A DNA stretch of 64,000 bases from Haloarcula mannanilytica (GTDB lineage: Archaea > Halobacteriota > Halobacteria > Halobacteriales > Haloarculaceae), in contig NZ_BIXZ01000004.1 in NCBI RefSeq assembly GCF_005406125.1, positions 1 to 64,000 on the forward strand, read 5' to 3'. Both the position numbers and the translations under genes were made by a program. The notes beneath the pieces were generated by a model, which had not been told where the DNA came from, made no database searches, and saw only the letters and a program-made list of their open reading frames with translations. This document shows positions 9,600-64,000 of the stretch, in pieces (positions within the stretch are counted from its first letter, which is position 1; each line of letters opens with the position of its first letter).

Positions 9600-9941
9600 T
9601 GCTCCATTATTCATTCTGTTCTTCTTTGCCTGACTGTCTGACAAACGACATTTGTGGCTCGTCTCACTTCCGCGTGTGGTACGTTCCCGGTAGTATCACT
9701 ACTTTCCTGATATCGATTCTGAACAGACAGCTTAGAATATACATGTGCAGGTTGCGTCGGCCAGACGACGAATCGGCATACTTGTATATTGGGGTGTACA
9801 ATCTGAGTTTGGATGGGAATATTTTGGGTCGCGATGGTCGAATCAAGTGAACTGGATAATATGTTTGTTTTATAATTACAGAAATATGGCTGGAAACAAG
9901 GCCGAAAACGCAGTGAGAATAACGATCGATCGGAACCAGAC
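9600..9941. other. intergenic, AT-rich promoter region of the GT2 gene
   Basis: No gene is supported. The AT content rises strongly from 9720 to 9930, as expected of a promoter and leader for the glycosyltransferase at 9942. No repeat or RNA gene was recognised. Confidence 0.4.
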
Positions 9942-11099
9942 ATGAGTTTGGAGCGGCTATCTCTATCCCTATTCATCTGTGCGGCTATCGGATTAGTCCA
10001 CGCCTATTTTTTCTATCCGCTGAGTCTTCGCGTACTCAATCCGATCGTCGGTAGTCCACTCGACAGACGTACAGAGCCTCTCCCCAGTGTAGCATTGATC
10101 ATCGCTGCGTACAACGAAGAAGACGTGATCCATGAGAAGATCGAAAACAGTCTCGAGTTGGAGTATCCTTCGAATAAACTCAACATCATCGTCTTCTCGG
10201 ACGCCTCTAGCGATCGAACAGACGAGATCGTCAAAGAGTACGAAAGCGAAGGAGTCACCCTGATCCGAATTGAAGGTCGGGTTGGAAAAACCGAGTGTCA
10301 GAACCGAGTTACCGAGCGAGTCGACGAAGAGATACTTGTGTTCTCGGACGCGAACAGCATGTACGAACCGAACGCGATTACCGAACTTGTCCATGGATTC
10401 ACTCCGGAGGTGGGGTGTGTCGTCGGCGAACTTCGATACCGGGATTCGAGTGATGTCGAAGGGGAGTCGTTCTACTGGCGGTACGAGTCGAGGATCAAAA
10501 GTCTCGAATCTGAGTTCCACTCGCTCGTGACCGGAAACGGTTCGATCTATGCGGTACGGACCTCCTCTTACGTGCCGCAACCACCGGATAGGATCAGCGA
10601 TTTTACCGAACCGTTGTCCATCATTCGAAACGGGGAACGGGTGAGGTACGTACCAAGCGCGGTTGCCTGGGAAGAGACGGGTTCGTCGCCGGACGACGAG
10701 CTATCGCGACGGATCCGGATCGTGACTCGAAGCTGGAACAGCATCATCGAGTACACGGATCTTCTCAATCCGCTTCAAGATTCCAAGATCGCCTATCAGC
10801 TCATTTCACACAAAGTCATCCGGTGGCTCTCCCCACTCTTGCTCATGGTCGCTCTGGGAGCGAATGTCGGTCTGGTACTGAGTGGGACGTCGATCTCTTA
10901 TGAGATCGCTCTCGCCGGTCAGATCGCCTTTTATATGTTGGCGGGACTCGGGGGAATGGCGGAACAGTTCGGCGTGGACGATCCGCTGATCACTCACGTT
11001 CCGTTCTACTTTCTGTATGCGAATTACGGAATGTTGCGAGGATTCTTGAATTTCGTGAACGGATCGAACATCGTCGTCTGGGAAACGACGGACAGATAA
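9942..11099 (+). CDS. membrane-anchored family 2 glycosyltransferase
   Basis: 385 residues. One membrane helix lies at about 4-22. The GT-A domain follows: VALIIAAYNEEDVIHEKIEN, IVFSDASSDRTDEI, and the metal-binding ILVFSDANSMYEPNA. GNGSIYAVR follows and is typical of the acceptor region. Three hydrophobic helices close the protein (about 290-360). This architecture is that of processive or dolichol-linked polysaccharide glycosyltransferases. It probably extends an N-glycan or exopolysaccharide on the inner face of the membrane. It is convergent with the GT2/AglQ-like pair. Codon use is intermediate in GC between the island and the core. Confidence 0.85.
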   Translation: MSLERLSLSLFICAAIGLVHAYFFYPLSLRVLNPIVGSPLDRRTEPLPSVALIIAAYNEEDVIHEKIENSLELEYPSNKLNIIVFSDASSDRTDEIVKEYESEGVTLIRIEGRVGKTECQNRVTERVDEEILVFSDANSMYEPNAITELVHGFTPEVGCVVGELRYRDSSDVEGESFYWRYESRIKSLESEFHSLVTGNGSIYAVRTSSYVPQPPDRISDFTEPLSIIRNGERVRYVPSAVAWEETGSSPDDELSRRIRIVTRSWNSIIEYTDLLNPLQDSKIAYQLISHKVIRWLSPLLLMVALGANVGLVLSGTSISYEIALAGQIAFYMLAGLGGMAEQFGVDDPLITHVPFYFLYANYGMLRGFLNFVNGSNIVVWETTDR

Positions 11100-59464: not shown

Positions 59465-60556
59465 ATGTCACTGCGGTCACCACCGCTCTCGGCGGTGCAT
59501 GAACGTGCCGACGCTTCGTTTACCGATTTCGGCGGGTGGGAGATGCCAGTCGAGTTCGAGTCGATTCGCGTGGAACACGAGGCGGTCCGGAGCGAGGTCG
59601 GGAAGTTCGACGTTTCCCACATGGGACAGATAACCGTGGACGGGCCGGACGCGGCGACGCTGACACAGCGCCTGACCACCAACGACGTGACCGCGCTGGA
59701 CCCGGGCGAGGCCCAGTACGCGGCTATCACTAACGCGGACGGGATTATGCTCGACGACACCGTGGTCTACCGCCTACCGGTGGACGCGGCCGACGAGTTC
59801 CTGTTCGTTCCCAATGCCGGCCACGACGGGGAGATGACCGAGCGGTGGCTCACGGAACGGGACGACCGTGACCTCGACGCCACGGTGACGAACCGGACCG
59901 AGGAGTACGCGATGCTCGCCGTTCAAGGTCCCGAAGCGCCGGACCTGCTGGCGGCCGAGACGGACGCCGACCTCCGGTCGCTATCCCAGTTTGAGGTCAC
60001 TGACGGGACTGTCGCCGGCGTCGACTCGCTGGTCGCCCGGACCGGCTACACGGGCGAGCGTGGCTTCGAGATACTCTGTCCGTGGGACGACGCCGAGGCG
60101 GTCTGGAGTGCGCTGGACTGTCAGCCCTGCGGGCTCGGTGCGCGCGACACCCTCCGTCTGGAGATGGGGTTTCTGCTCTCGGGCCAGGAGTTCCACCCCG
60201 TCGACGAGCCCCGAACGCCCCACGAGGCCGGCATCGGGTGGACTGTCAAACTCGATACGGAGTTCGTCGGCCGGGACGCGCTGGAAGGCGTCGCCGCCGA
60301 CGGCCCCGAAGAGAAACTCGTCGGTATCGAACTCGTAGACCGCGGTGTTCCGCGCCACGGCTACGATGTGACGACACCGGACGGGGAAGCTATCGGACAC
60401 GTCACCAGCGGGACGATGAGCCCGACACTCGGGAAGCCTATCGCACTTGCCTACGTCCCGGCGGCGTATGCCGAACCCGACGAGTCCGTTCGCGTCGTCG
60501 TCCGCGGTGAACCGAAGAAAGCACGTACCAGGAGCACGCCATTCCTTGACAGATGA
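59465..60556 (+). CDS. gcvT: glycine cleavage system aminomethyltransferase (T protein)
   Basis: 363 residues from ATG 59,465 ([20 protein letters not shown]); the frame reaches upstream to 59,405 without a site. [58 protein letters not shown] and [17 protein letters not shown] are conserved folate-binding segments, and [20 protein letters not shown] closes the core. It moves the methylene group to tetrahydrofolate. First of gcvT-H-PA-PB; its stop overlaps gcvH by four bases. Confidence 0.94.
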
Positions 60557-60936
60557 GCTTCGACGTTCCCGACGACCTGCGATATCTGGAGTCACACGAA
60601 TGGGTGCGCGTCGCCGACGGCACCGCCGAAATCGGCATCACCGAGTTCGCACAGGACGAACTCGGCGACGTGGTGTTCGTCGAACTGCCCAACGAAGGGG
60701 CGACCCTGACTGCGGGCGAGGACTTCGGCGTGGTGGAGTCGATCAAAGCGGTGTCGGACGTGTACGCCCCGGTCTCCGGAACCGTCACGGCGGTCAACGA
60801 CCGACTCCGCGACGAACCGGAACTGCTGAACGAGGACCCCTTCGGTGAGGGCTGGATGCTAGAAGTCGAACTCGACGACGAGAGCGAACCCGATGACCTG
60901 CTCTCACCCGCCGAGTACCGCGACCAGATCGAGTGA
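60553..60936 (+). CDS. gcvH: glycine cleavage system H protein
   Basis: 127 residues. The lipoyl-binding site is Lys65 in [17 protein letters not shown]. The front [40 protein letters not shown] and the end [13 protein letters not shown] are standard. It shuttles the aminomethyl arm between P, T and L proteins. The lipoylation machinery and L protein are not in the window. Overlaps gcvT by four bases. Confidence 0.96.
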
Positions 60937-61044
60937 CTGTCGGTCGCGGTGGGCTTCCGAGAGGCCCGAAAGGAGTACTCTAATGTGGACACGGTCGTTA
61001 GCTGCTTCTATCATGTCACCCCGGCGCTGCTGGGTGGATCTCAA

Positions 61045-62388
61045 ATGAGCGATAGTGACTCACACGCGACAGGCAGTCCGTACGCACCGCAGACGGCCAC
61101 AGAAACCGCGGCGATGCTTGAGGCAGTAGGCGTCGACGATATCGACTCGCTGTTCGACGTTCCCGACGCTGTCGCCTTCGACGGCGAGTTCGGTATCGAC
61201 GCCCGGAGCGAGCGAGCGACACGTCGGGAAGTCGCCAGCCTCCTGGGGCGCAACGCCGATCTCACCGAATTTCTGGGCCGCGGCCACTACGATCACTACG
61301 TCCCGAGCGTCGTTGACGACCTCGCCAGCCGTTCTGAGTTCCTGACTTCCTACACGCAGTACCAGCCCGAGGTCGCACAGGGATTCCTCCAGGCCCTCTT
61401 CGAGTTTCAATCGATGCTGGTCGAACTCACAGGACTCGATGTCGCCAACTGCTCGATGTACGACGACGCGACGGCGCTGGGCGAGGCGGCGACCCTCTCC
61501 CAGCGAGTCCGGTCGGTCTCGGGCGACCGGATTCTGGTTCCCGAACACCTCCGGGACGGCAAACACGCCGTGCTGGCGAACTACGCCGACGGGCCGGACT
61601 TCACGGTCGAGTCGTATCCCATGACGGACGGTGTCGCCGACGTGGGAGCGCTCTCTGAACAGGTGGACGGGGACACTGCGATGGTGTACGCCGAGACGCC
61701 GACGGTCCGGGGCGTCATCGAGGAGCGGCTCGGCGCGCTCGGTGACCTCGCAGGCGACCACGACGCGCTGTTCTGTCTCGGCTCGGACCCGATTGCGCTG
61801 TCCCTGCTGGAACGGCCGGCCGATGTCGGAGCCGACGTGGTTGTCGGCGACGCCGCGTCGCTGGGGACCGGCACCGCTTACGGCTTCGGGCTGGGGATGT
61901 TCGTCACCCGCGAGGAGTACCTGCGGCAGGTGCCCGGTCGCCTCGTGGGGGCCAGTGAGGACGCAGCTGGCCGCCGCGCGTACACGCTCACGCTCCAGAC
62001 GCGAGAGCAGCACATCCGCAAGGAGCGGGCCACGTCGAACATCTGTACGAACCAGGCGTGGGTCGCGTTGCGGACCGCCATGCACGCCGCGTGGCTTGGC
62101 CCGGACGGACTGGTTGACCTCGCGGAGGACTGTGTGACTCGCGCCCGCGACCTGGCCGACCGCCTCGACGGCATCGTCGGCGTGAAGGCCCCGGTCCACG
62201 ACCACCACCACTTCCGGGAGTTCCTTGCCCGCACGGACCAGCCGGCCAGCGCCATCGTCGGGGACCTCACGGACGAGGGCTTCGCGGTTCACGCGGTCGA
62301 CGACCACCTCGTGCAGGTGTGTGCGACCGAGACGACAGCCGAGGCCGAAGACGAGTTCGTGGCGGCGTTCCGAGAGGTGGCGAAATGA
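61045..62388 (+). CDS. gcvPA: glycine dehydrogenase (decarboxylating) subunit 1
   Basis: 447 residues from ATG 61,045 ([20 protein letters not shown]); the frame extends to 60,949 but lacks support. N-terminal half of the P protein: [80 protein letters not shown] and [10 protein letters not shown]. It lacks the PLP lysine, which is in the partner. In Archaea the P protein is split; the two subunits form the active enzyme. Downstream comes a repeat element before gcvPB. Confidence 0.95.
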
Positions 62389-62406
62389 CACTCGCCGCAC
62401 TGCGCC

Positions 62407-62546
62407 CGGCGAAACACCGTGGGACAAACCACGTCCCACGAGCATCACGCTCGACACGGGGGTGTCTCTTCGCCTCGCAATACTCGGCGAAACACCGTGG
62501 GACAAACCGCGTCCCACGAGCGTCACGCTCGACACGGGGGTGTCTC
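62407..62546 (+). repeat. tandem 62-bp hairpin-rich repeat between gcvPA and gcvPB
   Basis: Two copies, 62,407-62,468 and 62,485-62,546, differ at two positions and are separated by 16 bases. Each has three consecutive palindromes: GTGGGAC/GTCCCAC, GAGCGTCACGCTC, and GACACGGGGGTGTC. Both copies begin CGGCGAAACACCGTGGGACA and end GGTGTCTC. The second ends just before the gcvPB GTG (62,549), so it would be in the leader. The two copies lie a multiple of three apart and the gcvPB frame is open through both, giving the peptide ETPWDKPRPTS twice, in frame with gcvPB. Confidence 0.85.
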
Positions 62547-62548
62547 GC

Positions 62549-63970
62549 GTGAAATACGACCAGGCGCGCTGGACCGACGACAGCGACGACCTGTACGAGC
62601 CGTTGCTCTCGGAGAAAGCGAGCGAAACCGTCGAGGTCGATGACTCGCCGCTGCCCGATGACCTGACGCGGGACGCCCTTTCCTTGCCGGACCCGGCCGA
62701 ACCTGAACTGGCACGGCACTACACGCGCCTCTCACAGATGAATTACGGCGTCGAGAGCGGGCCGTTCCCGCTTGGCTCGTGTACGATGAAGTACAACCCC
62801 TCCTTCACCGAGGACGTGGCTGCGCGGGCGGACGCTGCTATCCACCCGGATCGGCCCGATTCAACGGTTCAGGGGACGCTGGCACTGTGTCACCGCCTGC
62901 AGGACTATTTGGGTCGCATCGGCGGCATGGACGCGGTGACCTTGCAGCCACCGGCCGGCGCAGCCGGCGAGTTCACCGGGGTTCAAATTGCGAAGGCCTA
63001 CCACGAACACAACGATGACGAGCGACGGGAGGTTGTCATTCCGGATTCGGCACACGGCACAAACTTCGCGACGGCGGCGATGGCCGGCTACGAGGTCGTG
63101 GAACTGCCAAGCGGCGACGACGGCTGTGTCGACATCGAGGCGCTGGAGGCGGCCGTTGGCGATGACACCGCCGCGCTCATGCTCACAAACCCCAACACGC
63201 TGGGGCTGTTCGAGCGCGACATCGAACACATCGCCGATATCGTCCACGACGCCGGCGGCCTGCTGTACTACGACGGCGCGAACCTCAACGCCTTGCTCGG
63301 GCGCGCTCGCCCCGGTGACATGGGCTTTGACGTGATGCACTACAACGTCCACAAGACGTTCGCGACGCCCCACGGCGGCGGTGGCCCCGGGGCCGGCCCG
63401 GTCGGCGTCCGCGAGGAGCTGGCCCAGTTCCTCCCGAACCCACACGTCAGAGAGCGCGGCGGCAACTACGAACACTACGAGCCGGACAGCTCCATCGGGA
63501 AGGTGCATGGCTTCTACGGCAACTGGCCGGTGCTGGTCAAGACCTTCGCCTACATCGCCCGACTCGGTGACGAGGGTCTCAGCGACGCCAGCGCCAAGGC
63601 CGTCCTCAACGCGAACTACCTCGCCGAACAGATTGAGTACGAGGTGCCCTTCGGCCCGTTCCACCACGAGTTCGTCGCCAGCGCGGGCGAGCAAGACGCC
63701 GCCGACGCGGCCAAGCGGATGCTCGACTACGGCGTCCACCCGCCGACGACGAAGTGGCCCGAAATCGTCGACGAGGCGCTGATGACCGAGCCGACGGAGG
63801 GCGAGACCAAACGCTCGCTGGATCAGCTCGCGGCCGCGTTCAACGCTGTCGCCGGCGATTCAGACGCCGAACTGGCCGAGGCCCCGTCCCGTCCGGCGGC
63901 GAAACGCATCGACCAGGTGACCGCGGCTCGAAACCCTCGCCTCTCCTGGCAGGCGCTTGACGACACGTAG
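62549..63970 (+). CDS. gcvPB: glycine dehydrogenase (decarboxylating) subunit 2
   Basis: 473 residues from GTG 62,549 (MKYDQARWTDDSDDLYEPLL), placed right after the tandem repeat. The frame is open upstream, but that part is repeat-derived. Conserved blocks: MNYGVESGPFPLGSCTMKYN, LQPPAGAAGEFTGVQIAKAY, DSAHGTNFATAAMAGYEVVE, YYDGANLNALLGRARPGDMG and MHYNVHKTFATPHGGGGPGA, where Lys269 carries PLP. FGPFHHEFVAS and GVHPPTTKWPEIVDEALMTE end it. With gcvPA it decarboxylates glycine and passes the aminomethyl group to GcvH. Confidence 0.94.
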   Translation: MKYDQARWTDDSDDLYEPLLSEKASETVEVDDSPLPDDLTRDALSLPDPAEPELARHYTRLSQMNYGVESGPFPLGSCTMKYNPSFTEDVAARADAAIHPDRPDSTVQGTLALCHRLQDYLGRIGGMDAVTLQPPAGAAGEFTGVQIAKAYHEHNDDERREVVIPDSAHGTNFATAAMAGYEVVELPSGDDGCVDIEALEAAVGDDTAALMLTNPNTLGLFERDIEHIADIVHDAGGLLYYDGANLNALLGRARPGDMGFDVMHYNVHKTFATPHGGGGPGAGPVGVREELAQFLPNPHVRERGGNYEHYEPDSSIGKVHGFYGNWPVLVKTFAYIARLGDEGLSDASAKAVLNANYLAEQIEYEVPFGPFHHEFVASAGEQDAADAAKRMLDYGVHPPTTKWPEIVDEALMTEPTEGETKRSLDQLAAAFNAVAGDSDAELAEAPSRPAAKRIDQVTAARNPRLSWQALDDT

Positions 63971-64000
63971 CCGCGCGTTTCGACATTTGATACTTCCGCC

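Follow-up and report, generated by a model that had tools for sequence, protein, structure and literature searches.

The window, a 64,000-nucleotide stretch of the Haloarcula mannanilytica genome, contains the genes gcvT, gcvH, gcvPA and gcvPB, whose identities are backed by NCBIfam. A preliminary description of this DNA placed them in a compact operon with four-base overlaps between neighbors. Such an overlap does join gcvT and gcvH (60553-60556), but some 108 nt separate gcvH from gcvPA. Between gcvPA and gcvPB lies an insert made of the one direct-repeat family in the region (62392-62468 and 62470-62546, spacing 78). The two near-identical 62-bp tandem units reported earlier were recovered as the cores of this 78-bp period (62407-62468 vs. 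62485-62546, 97% identity). Three palindromes per unit had been described, and each core indeed contains three hairpins: CGTGGGAC/GTCCCACG, GAGC/GCTC, and GACAC-GGGG-GTGTC; an additional, weak one (TCGCC/GGCGA) is found at the start of the 78-bp period. Also as described, gcvPB begins two bases after the second copy, at the GTG at 62549. The 173-nt region folds more stably than all of 200 dinucleotide shuffles (z = -4.98), and a single 62-nt core folds more weakly (z = -2.56 vs. shuffles). The unit is present at one place in this genome; the next-best match has an E-value of 0.04.

The stop of gcvPA is contained in an ATGA (62385-62388) and the start of gcvPB in a GTGA (62549-62552). A small open reading frame, here called the relay ORF, spans the insert and shares 4 nt with each neighbor: at its start with the gcvPA stop, and at its stop with the gcvPB start (Table 1). 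It had been claimed that the repeat keeps the reading frame open. An open frame is present, but the relevant one is the third frame, 62385-62552, and not that of gcvPB itself. Shine-Dalgarno (SD)-like motifs were identified by their match to the anti-SD sequence.

Table 1. Features of the gcvPA/gcvPB junction (window coordinates).
Feature	Position	Strand	Basis or remark
gcvPA	61045-62388	+	stop TGA 62386-62388 inside ATGA; NCBIfam GcvPA equivalog
SD-like GAGGTG 5' of the relay ORF	62374-62379	+	sequence; 6-nt match
Relay ORF, 55 codons	62385-62552	+	ATG in the gcvPA-stop ATGA, TGA in the gcvPB-start GTGA; equivalent open in 15/15 insert-bearing congeners
Unit 1, 78-bp period (core 62407-62468)	62392-62469	+	direct repeat
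Unit 2, 78-bp period (core 62485-62546)	62470-62547	+	direct repeat
Hairpin 2 CGTGGGAC..GTCCCACG, copy 1	62418-62440	+	folding; copy 2 at 62496-62518; pattern dispersed in genus g27
Hairpins 3 and 4, copy 1 (GAGCATCACGCTC; GACAC-GGGG-GTGTC)	62440-62466	+	folding
Terminal hairpin TCACGC-TC-GACAC-GGGG-GTGTC-TC-GCGTGA	62522-62553	+	3' arm = relay stop and gcvPB start; covariation, models R1 and R2
SD-like GGGGGTG, loop and 3' arm of the terminal hairpin	62536-62542	+	GGAGGTG in some congeners
gcvPB, start GTG 62549	62549-63970	+	NCBIfam GcvPB equivalog; aligned start codon of relatives

Elsewhere in the window, a second small ORF with -4 overlaps at both ends (9847-9945, + strand, 32 codons) lies between two long open frames. 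It has no evident likeness to the family described below and is perhaps due to chance.

Filled and empty gcvPA/gcvPB junctions

Fifteen of 32 Haloarcula genomes carry an insert, once per genome and at this junction only. The full unit is found in 14 of them, with one to three units overall (one unit in ten genomes, two in three, three in one). In the other, G025, the middle of the insert is different, and its 3' end is that of its Haloarcula counterparts. The relay ORF, which runs from an ATGA or GTGA to the GTGA, is open in all 15. Because 78 bp amount to 26 codons and phase is kept, the relay grows longer with each added copy but stays intact, and copy number can vary. We found gcvPB in 30 of the genus genomes, and the 15 that lack the insert have direct gcvPA/gcvPB overlaps of -4 or -1; two near-complete genomes, G006 and G014, had no gcvPB match at E ≤ 1e-10.

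In trees of both gcvPA and gcvPB, the 14 filled genomes share one clade with an empty one, G004, and G025 falls in another clade. Since G004 is empty inside the filled clade and G025 lies elsewhere, the insert was either lost in G004 or gained more than once. Divergence of the last unit averaged 0.113, vs. 0.281 at four-fold sites of the flanking genes (14 genomes, 91 pairs), and the insert was the less divergent in every one of the 91 pairs. The correlation between the two divergences was only 0.07; the history of the insert may thus include exchange between strains.

Across haloarchaea, we compared 170 distinct gcvPA/gcvPB junctions. In 93, the genes overlap directly or are separated by no more than 10 nt, and 45 are in-frame N-terminal extensions of GcvPB that begin in the RTGA. 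Another 27 are relays, a number obtained from a scripted count of 46 by removing 18 that were reclassed (from chains) as in-frame extensions, as well as L089, which is ambiguous between two possible gcvPA stops. The remainder comprise three junctions with a +1 gap, L089 itself, and one (L170) that was not assigned to a class. None of the 170 contains an insertion that clearly uncouples gcvPB.

The longest relay, a 547-nt insert in Salinarchaeum laminariae, has 184 open codons; given its phase, the probability of an open frame in shuffles was 0.029. For most single inserts this probability was 0.54-0.95, as open frames are common in GC-rich DNA once the phase is right. Because an open frame is not improbable for most single inserts, the weight of the argument is carried by the repeated double overlap. 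At one junction (L146, genome G144), three tandem terminal hairpins, each ending in GTGA, yield two chained relay ORFs before gcvPB. Long runs of GCGAG/CTCGC-type palindromes were also observed at two junctions: within the GcvPB N-terminus of Halorientalis salina (L127) and inside the 184-codon relay ORF of S. laminariae (L100).

The terminal hairpin

Every Haloarcula insert ends in the terminal hairpin of Table 1 or a close variant of it, the last arm of which provides both the relay stop and the gcvPB start; the loop side reads GGGGGTG or GGAGGTG. The positions of the SD-like motif and of the start codon within the hairpin are kept across families. A check of folding and covariation had been proposed, and the hairpin does covary: two-sided changes were seen in 5 of 12 pairs among nine sequences from several families and in 7 of 11 pairs among 15 sequences from five kinds of junction, counts that describe the hairpin-bearing subset, since the alignment rows (A2, A3) were hand-picked as those in which the hairpin could be drawn, with G383, G267, the Halovenus-type relays and Salinarchaeum excluded. 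For the 15 sequences, the covariation score was 0.412, compared with 0.106 or less when the alignment was slid, and 0 of 500 shuffles equaled it.

Masking of the start was predicted beyond shuffles in G008, G023, G061, G144, G273 and G228, and local folding added G025 and G179 (fractions ≤ 0.04 throughout). In the window itself the start is predicted to be 91-99% paired, and this masking did not go beyond shuffles (fractions 0.17 and 0.28). Nor was masking beyond shuffles found in G329, G383, G267, the Halovenus-type relays (L068, L200, L206) or Salinarchaeum (L100). The Halovenus-type, Salinarchaeum, G383 and G267 relays thus indicate that the hairpin is not essential to the relay architecture. 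Overall, the start at relay junctions is predicted to be less accessible than that at 43 direct overlaps (mean probability of being unpaired, 0.18 vs. 0.49; p = 4e-6 with all 26 relay rows, and 0.014 when Haloarcula is represented by a single row).

Occurrence at other operons

The preliminary description had raised the possibility of a mobile miniature element and proposed a search for the unit across haloarchaeal genomes. The full Haloarcula unit is not scattered; it occurs at gcv only, and a search with it in the H. mannanilytica genome returns a single place. It took a covariance model of the terminal hairpin to bring the spread to light; this hairpin, together with a relay ORF, is found at unrelated loci. 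The insert belongs to a dispersed family, and by the refuting condition set in the preliminary description, a gcv-specific role is refuted as regards this hairpin and the relay ORF.

A first model, R1, was built from gcv hairpins alone. Within the genus, its matches revealed the same architecture before nuoCD, rps28e, leuC and argC. The argX/argC junction (both names are provisional) is a plain 4-nt RTGA overlap in 29 of 30 genomes; only in G030 does it hold a 79-nt insert with a relay ORF, and no other site points as clearly to a recent, precise insertion. A second model, R2, added the genus hits at other junctions to R1, and two gcv loci among the 78 examined below (G179, G273) were training rows of it. 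At E ≤ 1e-3, it matched 113 of 391 genomes of the haloarchaeal class, in 46 of 86 genera, with 1-4 copies per matched genome and one in H. mannanilytica. It was found in 17 of 265 phylum genomes, all of the same order, a figure that leaves unstated what share of the 265 lies outside that order.

We took up 79 R2 loci, mostly the best-scoring, and examined 78 of them (L313 was dropped at a contig edge). Five matches were re-oriented to the opposite strand, as the nearly palindromic hairpin had placed them on the wrong one. Relays were present at 75 of the 78 loci, and 71 had the -4 overlap at the upstream end too; L345, L375 and L385 are R2 matches that are not relays. As a control, 54 of 1508 other RTGA sites in the same DNA qualified as relays (3.6%; 2.2% with the -4 overlap). 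At the R2 loci, relays precede 24 downstream protein families: SucD (14), ArgB (12), NuoCD (7), GcvPB (7), PurQ (6), Ndk (5), and further ones that include RpoB, LysX, AtpC, S28e and LeuC. These names derive from HMMs run on one or more members. The upstream partners presumably include SucC, NuoB, PurS, RpoB'', AtpE and LysW, judging from their sequences and neighbors. An exact pattern of the family hairpin had no match in viral contigs.

The modal insert length in the family is 83 nt. At 79% of the 71 sites, vs. 41% in the control, the base that follows RTGA is duplicated at both ends, and in 62 of 71 it is matched by a complementary first base in the hairpin's 5' arm. Evidence for a duplication longer than RTGAN is weak; these features would fit a short RTGAN duplication. 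All 71 inserts are in one phase (2 mod 3), but the way in which a relay is defined makes this necessary, and it adds no separate evidence.

Two other repeats were observed during this survey. The hairpin-2 pattern, CCGNNNGACAAACCGCGTCNNNCGAG, is dispersed with covarying stems in eight genomes of genus g27 (G170, G184, G193, G197, G290, G382, G392 and G054; e.g., loci L157-L164), at 1 to 26 copies each; elsewhere among the 391 genomes it was found only at the Haloarcula gcv locus, and a reversed control pattern gave no match. Some relay ORFs have a core, AGACATTCCTGCTCGCT-CGCTGCGCGGGCTGTGACT, that also adjoins tRNA genes (Ser, Gly, Phe, Thr), beside copies of T-arm-like sequence, at L287, L288 (this genome, C1:39731-39771), L299, L301, L303, L304, L305 and L308, a placement that would fit entry of this repeat into the 3' ends of tRNAs.

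Interpretation of the insert

We consider it likely that the insert is a translational-coupling relay in the gcvPA/gcvPB ATGA overlap and that it belongs to a dispersed, MIRU-like haloarchaeal family located at coupling sites. The relay architecture is well supported: the DNA itself shows where the insert lies, that it overlaps the genes at both ends, that the frames are open and the hairpin covaries, that junctions exist both with and without an insert, and that the family reaches other operons. From it we infer translation of the relay ORF, reinitiation, start masking in vivo and mobility. The insert would split an ancestral ATGA stop/start overlap. Ribosomes finishing gcvPA would restart at the ATG of the ATGA, after GAGGTG, and would translate the insert as a small ORF, melting on their way the hairpin that conceals the gcvPB ribosome-binding site. 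Termination would then occur at the TGA within the GTGA, followed by reinitiation on gcvPB. In this manner, the two subunits could stay coupled across 160 nt, and only ribosomes arriving via the relay would overcome the silencing of gcvPB by the hairpin.

According to PMC10666635, termination-reinitiation in Haloferax volcanii falls to zero once stop and start are about 22 nt apart. With such a limit, an untranslated 160-nt gap should uncouple the genes, and the same would hold for inserts of 82-238 nt within an overlap, unless they were translated and overlapped both neighbors. SD motifs are described as helping reinitiation to a variable extent (passages of PMC6728339). The overlap type and the organism group are those of the H. 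volcanii ATGA reinitiation portrayed in parts of Huber 2019 and 2023 (PMC10666635, PMC6728339), where overlaps favor genes for subunit pairs of heteromeric complexes. Termination-reinitiation pairs overlap by -4 or -1 or are a few nt apart, and both relay ends overlap by -4. The H. volcanii cases are direct gene pairs, however, whereas here an inserted ORF bridges two overlaps.

The closest architectural parallel that we considered is the MIRU (mycobacterial interspersed repetitive unit). In portions of PMC12548453, a 2025 review, MIRUs are presented as mobile elements whose insertion at start codons couples their own ORF to the gene at -4 spacing; they are 40-100 bp long and lie in tandem, at variable copy number, between operon genes (PMC12548453, with excerpts of PMC4213456 and PMC2734929). 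Compared with those accounts, the 78-bp unit (family modal insert, 83 nt) is in the same size range, the Haloarcula gcv locus has tandem arrays of 1, 2 or 3 units, and the internal ORF makes 4-nt overlaps at coupling sites, with -4 at both ends in 71 of 78 loci. The haloarchaeal family differs in being archaeal and in its covarying hairpin, which holds an SD-like motif and a start codon. MIRUs occupy many loci per genome; with R2, this family has many loci class-wide, at 1-4 per matched genome. In its architecture, it would work like an archaeal variant of the MIRU kind, entering RTGAN coupling sites of many operons as MIRUs do in mycobacteria. In the PMC literature, a scope that takes in neither most subscription-journal papers nor bioRxiv preprints, we found no report of an archaeal family of coupling inserts.

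Other systems share single aspects of the relay. As some passages of PMC12548453 relate, in leader-ORF or bicistronic designs a small ORF ends on the next start and opens its structure, but these are synthetic or placed in 5' leaders, whereas the relay is natural, intercistronic and fed by an upstream gene. According to parts of PMC8092293, mgtQ of Salmonella (mgtC-mgtB) is an intercistronic short ORF that, with stem-loops, controls downstream translation; it is a single regulated locus, while the relay family is dispersed. REP and other palindromic repeats likewise consist of short palindromes, and hairpin 2 has dispersed relatives in genus g27. The relay insert differs in occupying stop/start overlaps and in carrying a coupled ORF.

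In a rival reading, the insert is a selfish, REP/MITE-like palindromic element that brings the host no benefit and persists only where frames stayed coupled; its hairpin would serve transposition, through recognition as a single-strand hairpin, and not translation. We regard this as a real possibility, although we lean against it. Dispersal before 24 downstream families, the one recent precise insertion at argX/argC, the duplicated RTGAN and the membership of hairpin 2 in a dispersed family of up to 26 copies per g27 genome speak for it. The conservation of the insert beyond four-fold sites in 91/91 Haloarcula pairs and the fixed place of the SD-like motif and start in the hairpin across families speak against it. 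Selfish origin and present use as a relay may both hold.

Of the earlier suggestions, the mobile miniature element and the RNA structure that controls gcvPB translation each hold in part and meet in a single dispersed insert, in which a hairpin surrounds the gcvPB start and a small ORF joins both genes. The more particular proposal of a gcvPB-specific, glycine-responsive switch draws on the structured RNA beside the start and is almost certainly wrong: half of the gcvPB-bearing congeners have no insert, the same module precedes genes unrelated to glycine (sucD, argB, nuoCD, purQ, ndk), and Rfam gave 0 matches at E ≤ 1 over 60500-64000, which also bears out the earlier statement that this is not the bacterial glycine riboswitch. 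An element that acts on mRNA processing or stability and sets the gcvPA:gcvPB message ratio would be in keeping with strong hairpins between cistrons; we think it unlikely, as it leaves the double 4-nt overlaps in 71 of 78 R2 loci unexplained. We are still more skeptical that the relay ORF encodes a functional small protein. Its frame is open in all members, and a motif, RRSCSLRCAGCD, recurs in relay ORFs of different loci. Yet gcv relay peptides differ between lineages, much of their sequence is a palindrome read in one frame, and the recurring core turns up next to tRNA genes as well, where there is no relay; furthermore, 57 of 75 peptides are net basic, with a mean of +0.10 per residue vs. 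-0.10 for the downstream genes. Taken as a whole, the interpretation in the preliminary description is partly supported.

Beyond the relay itself, we tentatively suggest that miniature mobile elements throughout the haloarchaeal class target coupling sites with a self-contained handover module, in which a passenger ORF is combined with a duplicated RTGAN and a ribosome-binding site gated by a hairpin. If so, their place within the coupling step could let such elements into operons as essential as those for RNA polymerase, complex I, succinyl-CoA ligase and ATP synthase while the subunits remained coupled, and one hairpin may serve both transposition and translation gating.

Whether a post-termination ribosome needs an overlap or scans onward is contested, as portions of PMC10666635 make plain. 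The inserts amount to natural experiments on this question, with 55-547 nt placed into an overlap, and every clear gcvPA/gcvPB insert is either bridged by a coupled ORF or fused to the next protein. They also show how insertion between the subunit genes of essential complexes can be tolerated. Many of the very small, basic ORFs of haloarchaeal operons may not be protein genes but relays.
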